From contig NZ_BBLW01000006.1 of NCBI RefSeq assembly GCF_000971135.1, positions 62,001 through 126,000 on the forward strand: a DNA stretch of 64,000 bases. The letters are read 5' to 3'. The DNA is from Demequina phytophila. Its GTDB lineage: Bacteria; Actinomycetota; Actinomycetes; Actinomycetales; Demequinaceae. Positions 4,960 through 53,184 of the stretch are shown piece after piece. Numbering within the stretch: position 1 is the stretch's first letter; each line of letters opens with the position of its first letter. The notes beneath the pieces are model-generated. The model did no database searches, was not told where the DNA came from, and saw only the letters and a list, made by a program, of their open reading frames with translations. The translations under genes were made by a program, and so were the position numbers.

Positions 4960-6676
4960 CTTGGCTCACGCGCCGGCCGTCGGCGATGGCGCATCCGGTG
5001 TACCTGGGGTGATGGTCGGCGCTTAGTGCGTTTTCACGCACTAAGGGGATGGCGTCTAGGGTCTCGGTGTGGCGTTCATCAGGCGGGTGCGGACCGCGTC
5101 GGGAGCGACGGCGGTCCAGATCGCCGAGTACGCCGGCGGGCGGCAGCGGATTGTGCGTCATGTCGGGTCGGCGCATACGGAAGCCGAGCTGGGGATCTTG
5201 CTTGAGCAGGCCGGCCAGCTGCTCGGCGATCCCGATCAGGGCGCGCTCGAGTTCGACGTCACCCCCACCCCGCTGGTCGCGGACCTCGTGAGTCCGCGAC
5301 GCGACGACCTTGTTGACGTGGAGCCGCGCAGCACGGCGGCGCGTCGTGATGGGTCTGGTCGGGTCGTCGGCACCGACTCGCGGCTCTTGTTCGACGTCCT
5401 GGCCCGCGTGTACGCGTCCTTGGGGTTCGACGCCGTCGACGACGACGTGTTCCGCGACCTGGTGATCTCGCGGATCGTGGAGCCGACCTCGCTGCTCGAT
5501 ACCGGGCGCGTGCTCACGGACTTGGGGCGTACACCGGCGTCGTACGCGACGATGAAGCGCACCCTAGGTAGGTCGATGGCGGGCGGCTACTGCAACACAA
5601 TCGCCGCCGCCTGCTTCACCCACGCGATGAACGCCGGCGACATCTCGCTGGTCTTGTATGACGTCACGACGTTGTACTTCGAGGCAGAGAAGGAGGACAG
5701 CCTGCGCAAGGTCGGCTACTCGAAAGAGCGTCGCGTCGACCCACAGGTCGTCGTCGGACTCCTCGTCGACCGCAACGGCTTCCCGCTCGAGATCGGATGC
5801 TTCGAAGGCAACAAGGCCGAGACCCTCACCCTGGTGCCGATCGTGCGCCAGTTCCAACAGCGCCACGGCCTGGCGGAGATCGTCATCGTCGCCGACGCGG
5901 GCATGCTGTCCGCGACGAACCTACGCGAGCTCGACGACGCAGGGCTGAACTTCATCGTCGGGTCCCGCGTCACGAAGGCACCAGTGGACCTGGAGTCCCA
6001 CTTCCGGTGGCATGGCGACGCCTTCGTTGACGGGCAGGTCATCGACACCATCACCCCACGCACCGGGCATGCTCGCAAGGACGGCGCGTCGAACCCGCTG
6101 GTCAAGGCCGAACCCATCTGGAACGCCGACCACCATGAACGCTCGTGGCGGGCCGTGTGGGCGTACTCCGCCAAGCGCGCCGTGCGCGACAACCGCACCC
6201 TGACCCTGCAAGAGCAGCGGGCCCGTGACGTCGTGTCCGGTGACAAGGCCGCACGTACGCCCCGCTTCGTGAAGACGACCAACGGTGCACGCCGGCTCGA
6301 CGAGGCATCACTGGCAAGGGCGCGACGGTTGGTCGGACTCAAGGGCTACGTCACCAACATCCCCGCCACTCCCATGCCCGCCCGTGAGGTCATGACCAGC
6401 TACCACGCACTATGGAACGTCGAACAGTCGTTCCGGATGTCGAAGACCGACCTACGCGCCCGGCCCATGTTCCACCACACCCGCGACGCGATCGAGGCAC
6501 ACCTGACCATCGTGTTCACCGCCCTGGCCGTCAGCCGCGAGATCCAAGCCCGCACCGGACTCGCGATCCGCAACGTCATCCGTCAGCTACGGCCGCTACG
6601 GTCCGCGACCATCGCGATCAACGGCACCGAACAGACCTTCACACCCGAGATCCCCGAAGCCGAGCAAGCCATCCTC
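4957..6676 (+). mobile_element. IS1634-like element, right end lost
   Basis: The element carries a nearly full-length transposase and an upstream hairpin. Its left boundary is placed at the OrfA truncation point. Its right end is missing because the next IS3 begins exactly at the transposase stop codon. No right terminal repeat remains, so it should not be able to move by itself. Confidence 0.6.
5022..5045 (+). promoter_or_regulatory. Hairpin ahead of IS1634-like transposase
   Basis: A perfect 10-bp stem (5022-5031 with 5036-5045) closed by a 4-base loop lies 24 bases before the transposase start. Such hairpins near IS ends are known to limit expression by hiding the ribosome site or by blocking transcription entering from outside. 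Confidence 0.5.
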
Positions 6677-40610: not shown

Positions 40611-40715
40611 ACCGTCGGGGCCACGCGCATGCGAGGGACCTCGCCCGCACCACGCCCATCTATTGCAAATGTGCCAAATAGGACGCACGATGGGAGCGGA
40701 ACCCGGGGGAGGATC

Positions 40716-41333
40716 ATGCAACCGTTGCGTGCGTTGGCATTCGCGACCATGGTCGCGGCCGGGGTCGCGGGGGGCGCGGCGGTGGCCACGTCGCTCCCTG
40801 CGCTCACCAGCCCCGCGATCTTCGTGGACGGGTTCGGCGACATCAACGTCAACGTCTCGTGCGGCTCGCAGATGAACCTCGACATCGCCTACCAGGTGGC
40901 GCCCGAGCTGGAGTGGGAGTTCGTGGTGACCACGTCCGAGGGCGACGTGTTCTTCCTCACCGACACCGACGGCGACCTCATGGGCTTCCACCCGGTCATC
41001 CCCGCGGAGGACCTGCCGGACGTCAACTACACGTTCACGGTCGACGGCATGTACGGCGACGAGAGCTACCCCGGCCTGTTCTCGGGCAGCGTGGTCTGCA
41101 CCACCGAGCCGCCCGAGCCCTCGATCACGCCGTCGCCGACCATCACACCCGAGCCCTCGGTCACCCCGGAGCCGACCGTCACCGCCGAGCCCACGGACAC
41201 GGCGGAGCCCACCACCACGCCCGAGCCGAGCGAGTCCGCGACCGACGGCACCGACGGCGGCGACGTGGGCGTGCTCGACGAGACCGCGGGCGGCGCCTCA
41301 CCCGTGCCCGGCGAGGCGGGCTACACGGGCTAG
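40716..41333 (+). CDS. Small secreted protein with Pro/Thr/Glu stalk and YTG terminus
   Basis: 205 residues. A signal peptide (to about residue 30) leads into an unassigned ~100-residue domain with two Cys, then a low-complexity stalk of TPEPTV/TAEPTD-type repeats, and the end SPVPGEAGYTG. There is no C-terminal membrane helix. The same PVxGxAxYTG ending and the same GGAGG-ATC-ATG start context occur in the large secreted protein at 42.7 kb. The last four bases overlap the convergent arsC. Function unknown; surface-exposed or released. Confidence 0.7.
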   Translation: MQPLRALAFATMVAAGVAGGAAVATSLPALTSPAIFVDGFGDINVNVSCGSQMNLDIAYQVAPELEWEFVVTTSEGDVFFLTDTDGDLMGFHPVIPAEDLPDVNYTFTVDGMYGDESYPGLFSGSVVCTTEPPEPSITPSPTITPEPSVTPEPTVTAEPTDTAEPTTTPEPSESATDGTDGGDVGVLDETAGGASPVPGEAGYTG

Positions 41334-41740
41334 GTGGAGACCACCGACGGCCCGGGCTCCAGCCCGAGCGACTCCATGAGCGCGCGGACGCGGCCGTCGA
41401 TCTCGTCGCGCTGCGCCTCGGAGGGGCCGGGCTCGATGGACCAGTCCTCGTAGCGCTTGCCGGGGATGTACGGGCAGGCGTCGCCGCAGCCCATCGTGAC
41501 GATCACGTCCGCCTCCTGGAGCTGCGCGTCGGTCCAGCGCTTGGGGTGCTCGTGGGTGATGTCGATCCCGACGGCGGCCATCGCGGCGACCGCGCCGGCG
41601 CTCAGCGCCTCACCCGGCTCCGAGCCGCCCGACCACGAGGTCGCGCGCTCCCCGGCGTAGTGCGCGAACAGGCCGAGCGCCATCTGGGACTTGCCTCCGT
41701 TCTTCACGCAGAGGAACAGGACGGCGGGCTTGTCGGTCAT
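41330..41740 (-). CDS. arsC: Arsenate reductase, LMW-PTPase type
   Basis: 136 residues with the phosphatase-like fold: VLFLCVKNGGKSQMA P-loop, then MGCGDACPYIPGKRYEDW with the additional Cys residues of thioredoxin- or mycothiol-linked arsenate reductases, and the Asp of YEDWSIEPG. The P-loop reads CX5K rather than CX5R, as in some actinobacterial ArsC proteins. It reduces arsenate to arsenite for export. It follows the ArsR-ArsC fusion gene by 10 bases and is probably co-transcribed with it. No arsenite pump gene is nearby. Confidence 0.85.
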   Translation of the reverse strand: MTDKPAVLFLCVKNGGKSQMALGLFAHYAGERATSWSGGSEPGEALSAGAVAAMAAVGIDITHEHPKRWTDAQLQEADVIVTMGCGDACPYIPGKRYEDWSIEPGPSEAQRDEIDGRVRALMESLGLEPGPSVVST

Positions 41741-41750
41741 GAGATTCCTT

Positions 41751-42413
41751 TCAGAGGGACGATGCGAGGGTTGCGGCGAGCCGCGTGACGCGCGGCTCGA
41801 GGGCGTCGAAGGCGGCCGCGAACGCGCGGCTGGTGCCCTCGGCGACGGGGTCGGGGATGGACCAGTGGAGATCGCCGCCGCAGTCCTCGTACGCGAGGTC
41901 GCACACGGCGATCACCAGGTCACCGGGCTCGCGGGTCGCGTCGAGGGCGGCGGGCGCGAGGGCGACGGGCTCGAGACCGCGGCGGCCGAGCTCGTCGAGG
42001 GCGAGCGGGTGGATCCGCGCGGCGGGCGCGGTCCCGGCCGACGCCACGGGGACGATGCGCCGGGCGCCCAGCATCGCGGCGGCCAGCTGGGAGCGGGCGG
42101 AGTTCGCGGTGCAGGTGAACAGGACGCGCGCCGGGCGCGGGGCGTCGCCGGCCCGGTCGCCGTCGAGGGCCGCCGCGACCAGCGGGCTCCACGCGAGCGT
42201 GAGGTAGGAGCGGCGGCCATCCGCGTCGGAACGCCGCCGCGTCACCACTCCAGCGTCCTCGAGCACGCGCAGGTGGTGCGCGAGCAGGCTCGAGCTGAGC
42301 TCGGCGCGCGCCGCGAGCTGCCCGGGCGAGAGGTCGCCGTCCGCGAGCGCGTCGACCAGCGCGAGGCGATGCGGGTCGGCGAGCGCCGCGAGGACGGCGA
42401 GACGGTCGGTCAC
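41751..42413 (-). CDS. ArsR-type regulator fused to an ArsC/LMW-PTPase domain
   Basis: 220 residues. Residues 1-80 are an ArsR winged helix (LADPHRLALVDALADGDLS ... LSSSLLAHHLRVLEDAGVV). From about 95 an LMW-phosphatase-like domain follows, with VLFTCTANSARSQLAAAML (CX5R intact) and VCDLAYEDCGGDLHWSIPDP. Such fusions occur in actinobacterial ars loci and combine sensing with arsenate binding or reduction. GTG at 42413 is chosen, just downstream of a palindromic operator at 42426-42443; the frame is open farther upstream without reason to use it. Confidence 0.85.
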   Translation of the reverse strand: MTDRLAVLAALADPHRLALVDALADGDLSPGQLAARAELSSSLLAHHLRVLEDAGVVTRRRSDADGRRSYLTLAWSPLVAAALDGDRAGDAPRPARVLFTCTANSARSQLAAAMLGARRIVPVASAGTAPAARIHPLALDELGRRGLEPVALAPAALDATREPGDLVIAVCDLAYEDCGGDLHWSIPDPVAEGTSRAFAAAFDALEPRVTRLAATLASSL

Positions 42414-42425
42414 ACCGCCAATATA

Positions 42426-42443
42426 TCTCAACCCACGTTGAGA
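42426..42443. promoter_or_regulatory. ArsR-type operator
   Basis: TCTCAAC and GTTGAGA form a perfect 7-bp dyad around four bases, next to an AT-rich run (ATATAT), 13 bases before the ArsR-ArsC start. The placement and TTGAG half-site suit autoregulation by the fused ArsR domain. Confidence 0.65.
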
Positions 42444-42712
42444 GAACACCCATCCCCCGCCGAACCCGGCCCCGTACGAGGCGCGACATTCGGCGCGGCG
42501 GTGCGGGCGCATCGGCCTCTCAGGCGCAAGACTTGAGCCGATAACGCATTCCCTTTTGTCACATCCTTCACGCCCGTATAACGGCGTCACATGCGTGTAT
42601 GTGGAATTCTTCACAGCTTTGACGGTGGTTTCCGGGGGCCGGACCATGGTCCCAGCTGGGGAGCTGGGCGTCATTGTTGACGCCGGATCACCCTTCCCAG
42701 CAGGAGGGGATC

Positions 42713-45106
42713 ATGAAGCTGAGGAAGACTTGGGTGGGTGCGGTCATCGCCGCGCTCACCATGATGGTGGCATCGCCCGCCATGGCGACGCAGGGCGACC
42801 CGCAGCCGGGCAACGACGGCGTCCACAAGGTCTGGGTATGCAAGTACTCGGGCACGCCGTACGTCGACGAGGTGCTCAAGCCGGGCAAGAACCCGATCGC
42901 CGTCGACGGCAACGCCACGACCGGCACGTACTTCAACGACGGGCAGGGTCAGTCCTACGTGCTCGACCAGGTCACGGACGAGAACACCGAGCAGGGCGAG
43001 CGCTACACGGGCGGCAAGACCTGCCCCGAGGGCCGCTCCTTCGACTGGAACTGGCAGTACCCGGCGCCCACCTGCGACGCGCTCACGGTGACCTACCCGG
43101 CCGCGCTTCCCGCCGGCCAGGCCAACGACGTCAACGTGCGCATCAAGAACCTCGCCACCGGCGAGGAGAAGACGCTGAACTTCCACAAGAACGGCGGCAC
43201 CTGGACCGGGACGCAGACCTTCACGTTCGCGTCGCACCCGAGCTGGCCGGGCTGGAGCTACTACGCGGTCGTGTGGACCCAGGTGGCCGGCACCAACTAC
43301 CACTGGCAGGGCACCGTCACGTGCGGTGAGCGCGAGAAGCCCACGAAGCCCGACACCAAGGTCGAGAGCACCCAGTGGGAGGTGTCCGACTACATGTGCG
43401 AGTCGGAGACCGTGACGCTCACCCGCGAGACCACCACCACCACGTACACGTGGGACGAGAACGCGTGGGAGTGGAAGTCCTCGAAGTCGACCGAGACCGC
43501 GACCGACTCGCGTGCGATGACGGAGCAGGAGAAGGCCGCGCAGTGCGAGCAACCGCCCGTCGACGTCTGCCTCAACCTTGACGGCATCCAGACCGAGGTG
43601 CCCGACGGCTACAAGTCCGACGGCAACGGCACGTGCTGCAAGTGCACGCCGCCCCCCGTGGTCGACAAGTGCCTCAACATCGACGGCGACCAGGCGACCG
43701 TGCCCCAGGGCTACACCCGTGACGGCAACGGCGACTGCTGGACCGCCAAGCCGGACATGAAGGTCGAGAAGACCGAGTGGTCGGTGTCCGACTACAAGTG
43801 CACCCCCGACAAGGTCACGGAGACCCGCAACGTCACGACCACCACGTACACGTGGGACACCGTGACCGGCACGTGGACGTCTCACGTCGAGACGACCTCC
43901 GAGACCCGCATGCGGGCCATGACTTCTGAGGAAGCCGCGCAGTACTGCCCGCCGGCGCCCAAGAAGGTGTTCGTCTGCAAGTACGTGAAGACGCCTGGCG
44001 GCTCCTTCGAGGTGGCGCAGACCGGCAACAACCCGATCTCCGTGTCCACCAACGCGATCCCCGGTTGGGATGACTCGAAGTCCCTCGAGGACAACCCGAA
44101 GTGGTTCGCGGACGCTCACGAGCTGTCCATGGTGATCGGCTGGGACGAGGTCCAGGGCGACGGCCAGAACAACGAGCCGTCCATCGACGACTGCCTCATG
44201 CCGCCCAAGGTCGAGGTCAGCGACTGGAGCGGTGAGCCCCAGTGCGGCGTGGACTTCTACTTCGAGTCCGCGACCGAGACCACCACGTCCTACCTGCTCA
44301 ACAAGGTGGACGGCGTGGGCACCTGGGTTCCCGTGGTGACCTACAAGCAGCTCGAGCGCAAGGTCTACGTCGAGGCCGTGCCGTGTGAGGATGCCTCGGC
44401 ATCGGTCACGGTGACGCCCGCGACGTGCGACGCACCCGGATCGGTCGCGGTGGCGACTGCTGAGAACGCGAGCCTCTCCGGTTCGCTCGACCAGACGCCC
44501 GGCACCCACGAGGCGACCTTCGTCGCCGACGACGGTCACGCGTTCGAGGGCGGCGACACGACGCTGGTGGTGGAGTACACCGTTGAGGACCAGCTGACCG
44601 AGGGCTGCGGCGAGGTGGAGGTGAGCCCGGCGTCGATTGACGGGACCCTGGTGGGCGAGGTCTGCACCGCCGACGCGCCGTTCCTCCAGTACGACATCAA
44701 GCTGGACGACCCGGACAACGTGTCGACCGACGACGGCACCGCGACCATCACGTTCGTCCACCCGAAGAACCCGGCGAAGAACTGGTCGACCACCGTGGAC
44801 ATCGGCTCCGGCCGGATCCTGTGGCCGGGAGCCAGCCTCGACGCCAACGGCGTGGCGAACAACTGGCCCGGGTACAGGTACGTGCCCTCGAAGGACGCCT
44901 GGGTGTCCGTGGGCAACGGCAACTACGGCTGGACCCGCTCGGACAACACGCAGGTGATCATCCAGGTCAACCCGAGCAAGTCCTTCACGGTCTCCTACCC
45001 GCCGGCCACGCCGGTGTGCAACTCGGAGCCGCCTGAGACGGTGGTGAGCGTCCTCGACGCCCCGCCTGCCACCCCGGTGACGGGAGTGGCGAGCTACACG
45101 GGCTGA
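42713..45106 (+). CDS. Large secreted Cys-rich repeat protein with YTG terminus
   Basis: 797 residues. A signal peptide (cut after SPAMA) precedes three module types, each present twice: a VCKY...NPI module (about residues 40 and 420), a KVExTxWxVSDYxC...TTTTYTWD...C module (about 213 and 348), and a CLNxDGxQxxVPxGYxxDGNGxC module (about 286 and 320). The C-terminal half is beta-sandwich-like with ATP-free, adhesin-like spacing. It ends PATPVTGVASYTG with no membrane anchor. ATG at 42713 follows AGGAGGGG; an upstream ATG at 42674 is rejected. No family recognised; an exported surface or matrix protein is inferred. Confidence 0.7.
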   Translation: MKLRKTWVGAVIAALTMMVASPAMATQGDPQPGNDGVHKVWVCKYSGTPYVDEVLKPGKNPIAVDGNATTGTYFNDGQGQSYVLDQVTDENTEQGERYTGGKTCPEGRSFDWNWQYPAPTCDALTVTYPAALPAGQANDVNVRIKNLATGEEKTLNFHKNGGTWTGTQTFTFASHPSWPGWSYYAVVWTQVAGTNYHWQGTVTCGEREKPTKPDTKVESTQWEVSDYMCESETVTLTRETTTTTYTWDENAWEWKSSKSTETATDSRAMTEQEKAAQCEQPPVDVCLNLDGIQTEVPDGYKSDGNGTCCKCTPPPVVDKCLNIDGDQATVPQGYTRDGNGDCWTAKPDMKVEKTEWSVSDYKCTPDKVTETRNVTTTTYTWDTVTGTWTSHVETTSETRMRAMTSEEAAQYCPPAPKKVFVCKYVKTPGGSFEVAQTGNNPISVSTNAIPGWDDSKSLEDNPKWFADAHELSMVIGWDEVQGDGQNNEPSIDDCLMPPKVEVSDWSGEPQCGVDFYFESATETTTSYLLNKVDGVGTWVPVVTYKQLERKVYVEAVPCEDASASVTVTPATCDAPGSVAVATAENASLSGSLDQTPGTHEATFVADDGHAFEGGDTTLVVEYTVEDQLTEGCGEVEVSPASIDGTLVGEVCTADAPFLQYDIKLDDPDNVSTDDGTATITFVHPKNPAKNWSTTVDIGSGRILWPGASLDANGVANNWPGYRYVPSKDAWVSVGNGNYGWTRSDNTQVIIQVNPSKSFTVSYPPATPVCNSEPPETVVSVLDAPPATPVTGVASYTG

Positions 45107-45353: not shown

Positions 45354-46139
45354 CTACGCAGCGTCGATGTAGACCGGCGTGCCCAGCGGGATCCCCGCCT
45401 CCGTGACCATCTCGGTGATCACGTCGTTGGGCACGCGGATGCAGCCATGGGAGACGGCGCGGCCGAAGGAATCGGGATCGTTGGTCCCGTGGATCCCGAT
45501 CACCGCATCGCCGCCCGCGAAGGAGTCAAGCACGGGCGAGTAGCCCGACAGCCCGTACGCGTACGGGCCGTACGCGCCGTCCGGGTCCGGCGGCTGCAGC
45601 AGCTCGCGGATGAAGTAGACGCCGCCGGGGGTGGGGAGCTCGTCGGTGCCGAGCCCGATCTCCGTCGTGAGGACCTTCTTATCGCCGTCCCACACGGTCA
45701 GCGTGAAGTCTCCGAGGCTGATCTCGACCGACATGTCCGTCGCGCTCACCGTCGCGTTGTCCGCGGAGATCCATCCCGTCGACCCGTTGGGCCGCACCGG
45801 CAGGTACACCTCGAGCCACGACCCCTGGATCTGCTTCACCAGGAACACCAGCGGCGTCGCCTCGGGCACGGTGAGCACGTCCTCGGCGCGGATCACCTGC
45901 TGCTCGCTGCCGTCGGGCTCCGTCAGCACGGTCACCTTGGTGCCGCGGACGGTCGCGATGTAGGAGGGCTCGGCCTGCTCGGTCGCGGACGGCTCGGGCG
46001 TCGGCGTGGTCGAGGCCGTCACCGCGGGCACGGGCGCCGCGGTGGACGATGCCGCGGTCGCCTCGGGCTCCGAGGCGGGGGTGCACGCGGCGAGAGCCAG
46101 TGTGGCGACCATGGTGAACAGCGCGACGACGCGGCGCAT
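45354..46139 (-). CDS. L,D-transpeptidase (YkuD) lipoprotein
   Basis: 261 residues: lipobox LAAC (Cys19), a Thr/Pro/Ala linker to about residue 58, an SH3-like or small beta domain (~60-130), then the YkuD domain with IGIHGTND and the catalytic SHGCIRVPN (Cys233, His231). It forms 3-3 cross-links in peptidoglycan or tethers proteins to it, outside the membrane. The domain order is usual for actinobacterial Ldt proteins. A 17-bp terminator of the upstream MFS gene separates it from that unit. Confidence 0.9.
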   Translation of the reverse strand: MRRVVALFTMVATLALAACTPASEPEATAASSTAAPVPAVTASTTPTPEPSATEQAEPSYIATVRGTKVTVLTEPDGSEQQVIRAEDVLTVPEATPLVFLVKQIQGSWLEVYLPVRPNGSTGWISADNATVSATDMSVEISLGDFTLTVWDGDKKVLTTEIGLGTDELPTPGGVYFIRELLQPPDPDGAYGPYAYGLSGYSPVLDSFAGGDAVIGIHGTNDPDSFGRAVSHGCIRVPNDVITEMVTEAGIPLGTPVYIDAA

Positions 46140-50723: not shown

Positions 50724-50842
50724 AGAGTGTAGGGCACGCCGGGCGGGTGTGGGAACGGGCGGATGAACCGCGCGAGATCCCGGCACCGGCATCCGCGCCC
50801 GCGGAGGTCCGCGACCCTACGATGAGCGCGAGGGGGTGGGCC

Positions 50843-52504
50843 ATGGACGGCGCGACACACGAGGCCATTCCGACGGTGCGCGAGCAGCTCAGGGACATGC
50901 TGCGCGCGATGGCGAACGGGGCATCGCTGCGTGGCGTCGCGCTCGTGGTCGCGGGAGCGGTGGTGCTGGCGCTGCCGACCGCCACCCAGTGGGTCGCCCA
51001 GGTGGTGGCGATCGGCGCGCTCGGCGTCACCGGCCTCATGGACCTCTTCTACGCGATCACCGGTCGGCGCTGGCTGGGACGCCGGATCAACAGGATCGTC
51101 GCGGCGCTACGCGGCCTCATGACTACCGCCATCGCGGCGGCCCTCGCCTTCGTGGCGTGGTGGGATCCGACCGGCGGCACGCTGAGCCTCGCCGCCGTGG
51201 TCGCCGCGCTCGGCATCTACGTGGCGTTCCGCGGGCTCATCGGCGTCATCGACGTGCTGGTGCGGCCCCGCCGGCGCGAGCGCCTGGTCCGCCTCGCGGC
51301 CTCGGGGCTCGCGCTCGCGGCGGGCATCCTCGCGGCGCAGGTGCCCGAGGCGATCGCCCGCACCGTGCTCGTCTCCGCCGCGACGGCGGCCGTGATCGTC
51401 GGTTTCCTGCTCATCGCGTGGGGCATCCGCCGTGCCGAGGGCGGCAGCGGGCTCGACCCGTCGCGCGCCTCGATCGGTCAGGTGCTGTGGGACTGGGTCC
51501 GTGGCTCCGACGTGGGCGACGAGGCCCGCGCCGAGCAGGTCGAGGCCCTCTACTTCGAGAACCCCGGACGCCTCAACAAGCTGGGCACCTGGTGGGTGAT
51601 GCTCGCGCTGTCCGTGGCGATCGCGACGTTCGCGGTGCTCGCGGACTCGACCGCCGTGGTGATCGGGGCGATGCTGGTCGCGCCGCTCATGACGCCGATC
51701 GTCGGGCTCGCGGGCGCCCTGGTCAACGGGTGGGCGCGGCGCGCGTTCCACTCCGCGGGCCTGGTGGCCGGCGGCGTGGTCGCCGCGATCTCGCTGTCCT
51801 ACGGCCTCGCCTCGTGGTCACCCGTCGCGATCGCGTTCGACACCAACTCGCAGATCGTGTCGCGCGTCACCCCCAGCACCGTCGACATGCTCATCGCCCT
51901 CGCGGCCGGCGCGGCCGGCGCGTACGCCACCGTCAACAAGCGCGTGGCCTCGGGCATCGCGGGCGTCGCGATCGCCGTGGCGCTCGTGCCGCCGCTCGCG
52001 GTGGTGGGGACGAGCCTCAGCGGCGAGCGCTGGGCCGATGCCGGAGGCGCGTTCCTGCTGTTCCTCACCAACTTCGTCGCCATCGTGCTCGCGGCGTGCG
52101 TGGTGTTCATCGGGACCGGGTTCGCGCAGCCCGACGTCCTGCGCAGCAACCCGCGCAGGCTGCTCCTCACGCTGTCGCCGTTCGTCATCCTCGCGGCGAT
52201 CGTGCTGCTGCCGCTCATGCTCCGGTCCGAGGGCCAGCTCGCCACATCGTCGCTCAACCGCAGCGCGGAACGCGCCGTCGAGGAGTGGCTGGGCTGGGAC
52301 ACCGAGTTCGCGATCCGCAGCGTCAGCGTGTCCGGCACGGAGGTATCCGTGGCGGTCGAGGGCCCCGGCGACACCCCCGCGCCCGAGGACCTGCAGGAGC
52401 GGCTGCTCGACGCGTTCGACGCCGCGGTCGCCGTCCACCTCGAGGTCATCCCGGTCGAGGTGACCACCCTCCCGGCGGTCACGCCCTCGCCGTCCTTGGG
52501 ATAG
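50843..52504 (+). CDS. DUF389 membrane protein with HdeD-like N-terminal half
   Basis: 553 residues. The first ~200 residues form about six short hydrophobic helices like HdeD/DUF308 proteins. Then comes a DUF389 (TIGR00341-type) domain with NKLGTWWVMLALSVAIATFAVLADSTAVVIGAMLVAPLM, split here as GAMLVAPLMTPI, and ALVPPLAVVG. A soluble C-terminal domain follows. Function of DUF389 is unknown. ATG at 50843 follows an AGGGGGTGG stretch; ATG at 50822 is possible. No operon partner except the lipoprotein 32 bases downstream. Confidence 0.78.
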   Translation: MDGATHEAIPTVREQLRDMLRAMANGASLRGVALVVAGAVVLALPTATQWVAQVVAIGALGVTGLMDLFYAITGRRWLGRRINRIVAALRGLMTTAIAAALAFVAWWDPTGGTLSLAAVVAALGIYVAFRGLIGVIDVLVRPRRRERLVRLAASGLALAAGILAAQVPEAIARTVLVSAATAAVIVGFLLIAWGIRRAEGGSGLDPSRASIGQVLWDWVRGSDVGDEARAEQVEALYFENPGRLNKLGTWWVMLALSVAIATFAVLADSTAVVIGAMLVAPLMTPIVGLAGALVNGWARRAFHSAGLVAGGVVAAISLSYGLASWSPVAIAFDTNSQIVSRVTPSTVDMLIALAAGAAGAYATVNKRVASGIAGVAIAVALVPPLAVVGTSLSGERWADAGGAFLLFLTNFVAIVLAACVVFIGTGFAQPDVLRSNPRRLLLTLSPFVILAAIVLLPLMLRSEGQLATSSLNRSAERAVEEWLGWDTEFAIRSVSVSGTEVSVAVEGPGDTPAPEDLQERLLDAFDAAVAVHLEVIPVEVTTLPAVTPSPSLG

Positions 52505-52536
52505 GTGCGCGCCGCCGCCCGGCGTACCGTGAAGGT

Positions 52537-53184
52537 ATGGGCACGATGCGGCGGTCGCCGTACGCGGTCCTCCTCGCCGCGGCGATGCTCGCCGGGTGCA
52601 CGTCGAGCCCCTCCCCGTCGGTGACGCCGAGCGCGACGCCCGCGCCGACCGTCACCGCGACTGCGACCGTGACGGCCTCGCCGTCGCCGGCCCCCACCTC
52701 CTCCCCCGCTCCGCAGGATTGCGCGACGTTCGGGACCTCGGCTGCCGGCGCATCGTCGCCCGACTGGGCCTCCTCACTCGCGAGCGGGCTGTGGGGCGTG
52801 ACGCAGCGTGTGGGCGTGCACGAGTGCTACGACCGCTGGGTGCTCGAGTTCGCGGGCGACGGCGAGCCGGGGTGGCAGGTGACGCCGCACGACGCGAGCA
52901 CGTTCGCGACCGACGCGTCGGGCGAGGACCTCGCGCCGCCGCTGGCGGGCGGAGCGTCGCTCGAGATCCTGGTGGGCGCGTGGTACGACGGCACAGCGAT
53001 CTCCCAGGCGGGATACGCGGGCCCGCTGTCGGTGACCGGGTCGGGCGCGATCCGGGAGGCGCGGATCGTGGGGGCGTTCGAGGGCATCACCCAGGTGGGC
53101 CTCGGACTCGATGAGGCGAGGCCCTACCGGGTGACGTGGCTCGAGGATCCCCCGCGGCTGGTGGTGGACGTGTTCACCGGATGA
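52537..53184 (+). CDS. AMIN-like domain lipoprotein
   Basis: 215 residues: lipobox LAGC (Cys21), a Ser/Pro/Thr/Ala linker to about residue 62, then a ~150-residue beta-rich domain with VHECYDRWVLEFAG, GWQVTPHD and the closing YRVTWLEDPPRLVVDVF. This is the actinobacterial AMIN-like domain, related to AMIN modules that bind the cell wall. Located on the outer face of the membrane. ATG follows GAAGG. The long upstream continuation of this frame overlaps the DUF389 gene and is not coding. Confidence 0.7.
   Translation: MGTMRRSPYAVLLAAAMLAGCTSSPSPSVTPSATPAPTVTATATVTASPSPAPTSSPAPQDCATFGTSAAGASSPDWASSLASGLWGVTQRVGVHECYDRWVLEFAGDGEPGWQVTPHDASTFATDASGEDLAPPLAGGASLEILVGAWYDGTAISQAGYAGPLSVTGSGAIREARIVGAFEGITQVGLGLDEARPYRVTWLEDPPRLVVDVFTG

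Follow-up and report, generated by a model that had tools for sequence, protein, structure and literature searches.

Which enzyme, if any, reads a short motif that ends two secreted proteins of largely dissimilar sequence? The question is raised by a locus of the actinobacterium Demequina phytophila (assembly GCF_000971135.1, contig NZ_BBLW01000006.1, positions 62,001 to 126,000 of the forward strand; this whole stretch of 64,000 nucleotides is referred to here as the window), in which the genes P0001 and P0002 encode secreted proteins that both stop directly after Tyr-Thr-Gly (YTG). The original prediction was that this ending might mark the proteins for recognition in processing, export or assembly; comparative genomics now supports such a role. 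The reading put forward here, with a rough probability of 0.52, is that the tails serve as the sorting signal of a wall-anchoring system that pairs a dedicated L,D-transpeptidase (LDT) with secreted proteins ending in [YF]-T-G-COOH. Wall anchoring is preferred over export because the tailed proteins already possess signal peptides, as recognized by eye.

P0001 (40716..41333, plus strand) is a secreted protein of 205 amino acids with homologues within the genus, and consists of a signal peptide (by eye), a small domain, a Pro/Thr/Glu-rich stalk and the YTG tail; its C-terminus reads VLDETAGGASPVPGEAGYTG up to the stop codon, the final residues being PVPGEAGYTG. P0002 (42713..45106, plus strand) is a secreted, beta-rich protein of 797 amino acids, adhesin-like by appearance, that was aligned with 18 homologues and ends VLDAPPATPVTGVASYTG, the final residues being PVTGVASYTG. 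Translation thus confirms the common C-terminal motif. The earlier statement that neither protein has a C-terminal helix is also borne out, as no hydrophobic helix was seen in the 150 bases 3′ of either stop when all three frames were inspected by eye, and so none that a frameshift might have severed. Lysine is absent from the 205 residues of P0001 and occurs 39 times in P0002. In an AlphaFold2 model of P0002 strands predominate and the final 32 residues have a predicted local distance difference test (pLDDT) score below 50, as for an unstructured end; the predicted template modelling score (pTM) of 0.25 makes the model too poor for a fold search. Neither Pfam nor NCBIfam holds a family above cut-off on P0001 or P0002; no NCBIfam model lies above cut-off over the tails, and neither protein has a choice-of-anchor domain. 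A Ten1 match from these scans is below threshold and not believable, and a plasmid search with P0002 as query gave no match.

Downstream of P0002, on the minus strand and convergent with it across a gap of about 248 bp, lies a gene (45354..46139) for a YkuD-type LDT lipoprotein of 261 amino acids, the proposed partner of the tail. It matches Pfam PF03734 with 61.2 bits (cut-off 23.4) and comprises a lipobox (LAAC), a beta-rich domain and a catalytic domain with HGTN..SHGCIR. Its structural model has a pLDDT of 83.9, and the top match in the Protein Data Bank is YkuD of Bacillus subtilis (4a1i/1y7m). HGT, S, GC and R are invariant in an alignment of 28 tail-linked LDTs, and HG, S, GC and R across 40 LDT sequences, linked or unlinked. 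The catalytic motif (His, Ser-x-Gly-Cys, Arg) is intact, and L,D-transpeptidase activity is predicted.

The tail is conserved in the genus, for which 44 Demequina genomes formed the sample. P0002 as query found matches in 34 of these genomes and P0001 in 23, part of the latter through the Pro/Thr-rich stalk alone. At 29 of 30 fetched P0002-homologue loci (the best-scoring places) a frame ending [YF][TA]G is present, so that the ending is conserved in orthologues, as the original prediction implied. The exceptional locus, L024, belongs to a genome rated 50% complete, and a frame of 171 amino acids adjoining the LDT of that genome ends ITYTG. The homologues aligned were picked because they have this end, and their identity to P0002 is 24-78%. 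Among 47 distinct genus tails, selected on a terminal [YF][TASVP]G, position -3 is Y in 43 and F in 4, V stands at -9 in 40 and A at -12 in 41. A profile of the tail (A1), run across the whole window genome at E<=10, matched P0001 (AGGASPVPGEAGYTG, 41286..41330, plus strand; match G000:C7:103286-103330), P0002 (APPATPVTGVASYTG, 45059..45103, plus strand; the top match of the genome, E 1.2e-4) and one weak place, C10:125338 (E 0.2). The last was rejected, as it is not terminal in its frame of 102 amino acids. The tail pair is not a chance likeness, because the genome-wide search yields just the two proteins and this one weak, non-terminal place.

In the genus the tail is also paired with one class of LDT. 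YkuD matches numbered 55, in 40 of the 44 genomes, and the region around each was fetched; the variable residue of the S-x-GC motif is H or S in 43 of these matches and N in 12. An adjacent gene ending [YF]xG accompanies 42 of the 43 S[HS]GC LDTs. In 39 cases this gene is convergent, ends [YF][TASVP]G and lies 41-516 bp from the LDT stop; in two (G037 and G013:C71) a gene ending ..FTG is placed head-to-head at gaps of 46 and 26 bp; and in one (G012) a tailed gene ending ..ATPATPVKTKASFTG (KASFTG) lies upstream on the same strand. The single S[HS]GC LDT without a tailed neighbour (G014:C33) is a remote, weak YkuD match of 33 bits. Two S[HS]GC LDTs are encoded in each of four genomes (G004, G020, G028 and G043), every enzyme with its own tailed gene. 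A lipobox pattern was recognized in 38 of the 42 tail-linked enzymes. For the 12 SNGC LDTs, a gene ending ..FTG is found directly downstream once (G040) and several kb away in four more cases. As a side observation, the SNGC regions contain proteins ending ..VDPVxxAxxxxFTG (L080:6499-8829, plus strand; L101, L103, L104 and L127), and such a gene directly adjoins the SNGC enzyme only in G040 (L080).

Tail and enzyme also occur together at the level of whole genomes. No full-length tail was found by profile at E<=0.3 in the six Demequina genomes without an S[HS]GC LDT (G032, G033, G034, G036, G039 and G040), but the same profile overlooked the tails of 6 of the 38 genomes that have them. By profile alone, the tail is thus present in 32 of 38 genus genomes with an S[HS]GC LDT versus 0 of 6 without (p 1.3e-4); when neighbour inspection is included the count becomes 38/38 versus 0/6 (p 1.4e-7), an uneven comparison in that neighbours helped the 38. 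The order-level test is fairer than this genus-level count. The LDT occurs in 52 of 396 genomes of the order at E<=1e-25, and a second tail profile, A5, has matches in 35 of the 396 at E<=0.02, 31 of them among the 52 genomes with the LDT. The four matches in LDT-less genomes (G235, G265, G269 and G389) are considered false, because each sits inside a longer frame that runs on for 28 to 260 residues. The tail is therefore found at a protein end in 31 of 52 genomes with the LDT versus 0 of 344 without, by a profile that was built from tails of LDT-bearing genomes and missed 21 of the 52, many of them known to have tails. The Fisher p is 6.5e-28 (kinship uncorrected) even with the four false matches counted as adverse. 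The co-occurring membrane protein sought in the original prediction is thus the adjacent, membrane-anchored LDT. Three tailed proteins of G060 and one of G076, in which the stop directly follows the tail, are encoded away from the LDT, so clients need not adjoin it.

Beyond the genus, an LDT alignment (A2) was searched against the same 396 order-level genomes and against 394 genomes at the level of the class, and 79 regions were gathered, made up of all 22 non-genus places in the order and 57 of 106 further places in the class, the latter chosen non-randomly by taking the top-scoring places and adding a range of weak ones. Here, "secreted-looking" denotes a crude signal-peptide pattern rather than a dedicated predictor. 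An automatic scan found a secreted-looking frame ending [YF]TG within 1.2 kb of the LDT in 50 of the 79 regions; the region L230, cut by a contig end, also has a tailed neighbour (..PNFTG), and three more (L250, L260 and L266) have neighbours ending ..YTR. Of the 770 secreted-looking frames near the LDT, 52 have the [YF]TG tail, versus 0 of 2039 elsewhere in the same regions (p=1.6e-30, kinship uncorrected), and if the signal-peptide pattern is dropped there are three tailed frames elsewhere in the non-genus regions. Gene arrangements are same-strand upstream (27), same-strand downstream (14) and divergent (9), while Demequina is mostly convergent. For 50 distinct tails from outside the genus, chosen for ending [YF]TG, the consensus is P-A-x-P-V-x3-P-[NSHTY]-[FY]-T-G, with P at -5 in 41, V at -9 in 37 and A at -12 in 31. 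Among 21 named non-Demequina loci, some of which are records also in the 79-region set (for example L199/L245 and L200/L252), at least 8 have a [YF]TG-type neighbour (two Actinotalea, Cellulomonas bogoriensis, a Frankiaceae bin, Actinorugispora, Nocardiopsis and two Acidimicrobiales bins) and a further 3 have a neighbour ending PVTG (L204, L207 and L210). On a FastTree phylogeny of 132 LDTs the linked label requires 6 changes versus a shuffled mean of 28.8; labels were assigned by hand, LDTs with a ..YTR neighbour being scored as linked and those with a ..VTG or ..FAG neighbour as unlinked, and three contig-edge rows were omitted.

The proteins that carry the tail are varied, ranging from small Pro/Glu/Thr-rich ones to beta-rich ones with open frames of up to 2133 residues. 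Proteins without detectable similarity have the tail in common, so other proteins with this end, including unrelated secreted ones, do exist. A choice-of-anchor Q domain is present in the tailed LDT neighbours L213 and L215, and Q and U domains in the tailed protein L080 beside the SNGC LDT of G040. When the mature part is crudely predicted, it contains no lysine in 7 of the 63 tailed proteins from Demequina and in 9 of the 26 from elsewhere.

A variant of the tail was also encountered. Secreted neighbours ending PVTG or DVTG occur at the LDTs L204, L207, L210, L277, L278, L281, L285 and L287, and such ends resemble an LPXTG-like signal that halts right after its glycine. The spacing of ..VTG tails to the PV pair is the same as that of [YF]TG tails. 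Proteins with DUF11 repeats adjoin the PVTG variant (L204 and L207 above cut-off, L210 just under). Downstream of its LDT, the region L284 encodes (5731-6339, minus strand) a [2Fe-2S] small subunit (Fer2_2) that ends PIPVPVKTKLPVTG; it has no obvious signal peptide and bears the variant tail seen in secreted neighbours of related LDTs. This protein is perhaps a wall-fastened redox enzyme, or its ending is due to chance.

In our judgement, the pairing of tail and enzyme is virtually certain to be real, and the tail is probably read by the LDT. Covalent attachment through the threonine with loss of the glycine is about an even prospect, and the fuller proposal, that the LDT acts as a sortase for which a free C-terminal -Thr-Gly is the acyl donor to the wall, that this is widespread in Actinomycetota including the two Acidimicrobiales bins, and that the -PVTG/-DVTG variant goes with a deeper LDT group, is offered tentatively and with slightly less confidence. 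Under this proposal the tailed protein would be exported by its signal peptide, and a flexible, often Pro/Thr/Glu-rich stalk would cross the wall and present the free C-terminus to an LDT that is tethered at the membrane and in Demequina is mostly a lipoprotein. The final -Thr-Gly would mimic the -L-diamino acid-D-Ala end of the peptidoglycan tetrapeptide. Glycine is the sole coded residue that is not L, and as the only coded residue able to occupy the D-Ala site it would explain both the Gly-terminal tail and the absence of a helix; no hydrophobic helix would be needed because the LDT would act on a free terminus. The LDT cysteine would attack the threonine carbonyl, the glycine would leave and the new protein C-terminus would be handed to an amine of the wall, which would amount to sortase-like chemistry, with the chain cut at the T-G bond, carried out by an enzyme of the YkuD fold. 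For the donor step of LDTs, PMC13235563 describes acylation of the cysteine on the donor carbonyl (a thioester), loss of the terminal D-Ala and passage of the chain to an amine, and states that a tripeptide without D-Ala cannot act as donor. The peptidoglycan of Demequina is of type A4beta with ornithine (PMC4400432).

Several points weigh against this wall-anchoring proposal, which is based on genomics. We know of no LDT that uses a coded protein C-terminus as donor. Position -2 is threonine in just 31 of the 47 genus tails (A in 10, V in 3, P in 2 and S in 1). The ..YTR ends are at odds with a strict glycine requirement; they belong to three tailed proteins upstream of LDTs (L250, L260 and L266, from genomes G538, G474 and G489, reread as L300-L302), and relatives in the same groups end YTG. 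In 25 of the 79 non-genus regions no adjacent [YF]TG or [YF]TR gene was found; 4 of these lie at contig ends (L235, L239, L244 and L283), L268 has a neighbour ending ..DPNFAG, 6 have a ..VTG neighbour (L277, L278, L281, L284, L285 and L287), and 15 have neither a VTG- nor a FAG-type end. Sortase is encoded in 44 of 44 Demequina genomes. With its 39 lysines, P0002 could also use a lysine route. Finally, YkuD-domain enzymes include the carboxypeptidase Csd6 (PMC6403190) and DpaA, which is reported to detach Lpp (PMC8263019), so trimming or release of the tail is possible.

Among the alternatives, the one that survives best, although it is unlikely, is that the tail is a docking motif for the LDT and that attachment proceeds through another amine of the protein, its N-terminus or a lysine, as acceptor, as for Lpp and N-terminally linked outer-membrane proteins. 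The protein links known for LDTs use a C-terminal lysine side chain (Lpp, OutB) or an N-terminal Ala or Gly, and two of the Lpp boxes, VRTYKK and S/RYTK, have Tyr at -3, the site of Y/F here, which the OutB box VRTTKK does not (PMC12274547). Docking would also accommodate the ..YTR exceptions more easily. Against it, P0001 and some other tailed proteins lack lysine, so that the Lpp (Braun-type) route cannot serve them, the conserved terminal Gly has no side-chain amine, and an N-terminal link alone would not explain a conserved C-terminus.

Rather less probable is an interaction without lasting attachment, in which the tail brings in or regulates the LDT, or is trimmed by it, the secreted protein being a scaffold or pseudosubstrate, or the LDT a carboxypeptidase or detaching enzyme. 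Pairing and co-occurrence would look identical in that case, and the trimming and detaching YkuD enzymes noted above provide precedents. Yet a genome can encode several tailed proteins, some at a distance from the LDT, and this, together with choice-of-anchor domains and stalk-like linkers, looks more like a set of anchored clients than a single regulator.

A reader of another kind, such as a sortase or a PDZ or tail-specific protease, with the LDT nearby merely through a common role in the wall, is improbable. It draws on the fact that sortases cut at T-G, and on the sortase genes of every Demequina genome. As a partner for the tail, however, sortase is uninformative: being universal in the genus it offers no contrast with the tail, and the window genome has a single sortase match, on another contig (C10). 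Moreover, the six genomes without an S[HS]GC LDT have sortase and no full tail by the profile that missed 6 of 38 tail-bearing genomes, and the four LDT gene arrangements are hard to explain by common function alone. Chance or plain inheritance of a family with a conserved end and gene order, which many homologous P0002-type genes in the same place beside the Demequina LDT might suggest, is highly improbable and already contradicted by the tail in proteins without detectable similarity, by linkage in other families and arrangements and by genome-level co-occurrence.

The wall-anchoring system proposed here can be compared with several known ones. Sortase/LPXTG sorting (PF04203) is similar in that the signal lies at the C-terminus of secreted surface proteins, often stalked ones, that T-G is the site of the cut, here a proposed one, and that a dedicated membrane-bound cysteine transpeptidase is involved. 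The LPXTG-type substrate has its motif followed by a hydrophobic helix and a charged tail, whereas P0001 and P0002 have no LPXTG, helix or positive tail, stop at the G and are paired with a YkuD-type enzyme. Exosortase/PEP-CTERM signals consist of a C-terminal transmembrane helix and an Arg cluster, and P0001 and P0002 have no such helix. Choice-of-anchor families (NF041518 and NF041766) are named for domains that occur with various anchors; such domains occur in three tailed LDT neighbours (L213, L215 and L080), unlike P0001 and P0002. Demequina and bacteria of its type are monoderms. The LDT-linked outer-membrane proteins with N-terminal Ala or Gly (as cited in PMC12274547) resemble the present case in a protein-wall link made by an LDT, here only proposed, and differ in that the conserved feature here is the C-terminus. 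In the LDT attachment of Braun lipoprotein (ErfK/YbiS/YcfS) and of Dickeya OutB, too, a YkuD-domain enzyme goes together with an exported protein that bears a short box at its C-terminus, but there the protein is the acceptor through a C-terminal Lys (PMC12274547), whereas P0001 and P0002 end in Gly, some clients are Lys-free, and the system involves actinobacteria and many different clients.

Other features of the locus are of lesser consequence. The start context GGAGG..ATCATG, which the original prediction listed as a further shared trait, is present in both genes and is merely an ordinary ribosome-binding site: GGGGAGG (40706..40712, plus strand) 5′ of the P0001 ATG at 40716, and GGAGGGG (42703..42709, plus strand) 5′ of the P0002 ATG at 42713. 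Between P0001 and P0002 (41330-42674, minus strand) lie two phosphatase-like genes, which by eye resemble a low-molecular-weight phosphatase/arsenate reductase and a larger, fused form of it; several other Demequina genomes have, next to their P0002 gene, a gene whose end is similar (..RRLAATLAS). A plus-strand frame from 50836 to 53184 encodes a lipoprotein that has a Ser/Pro/Thr linker and ends ..VVDVFTG, probably by chance, as this end lacks the PV context and is unmatched by the tail profile.

A literature search of titles and abstract openings, thin on subscription papers, found no account of a C-terminal YTG/FTG tag or of a protein C-terminus as LDT donor; as such papers lay largely outside the search, novelty is not proven. 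The tail-LDT pairing across actinobacteria suggests an undescribed, sortase-free means by which proteins are fixed to the cell wall. If this is true, many of the proteins that actinobacteria secrete and that have no annotated anchor would be wall-bound, and some YkuD enzymes annotated solely as cross-linkers would be protein-attaching enzymes, with the tailed proteins a new substrate class for L,D-transpeptidases. The tail would also become a short tag, genetically encodable, with which proteins could be ligated or displayed on the wall, and the system would bear on how some choice-of-anchor proteins without a known anchor are held.

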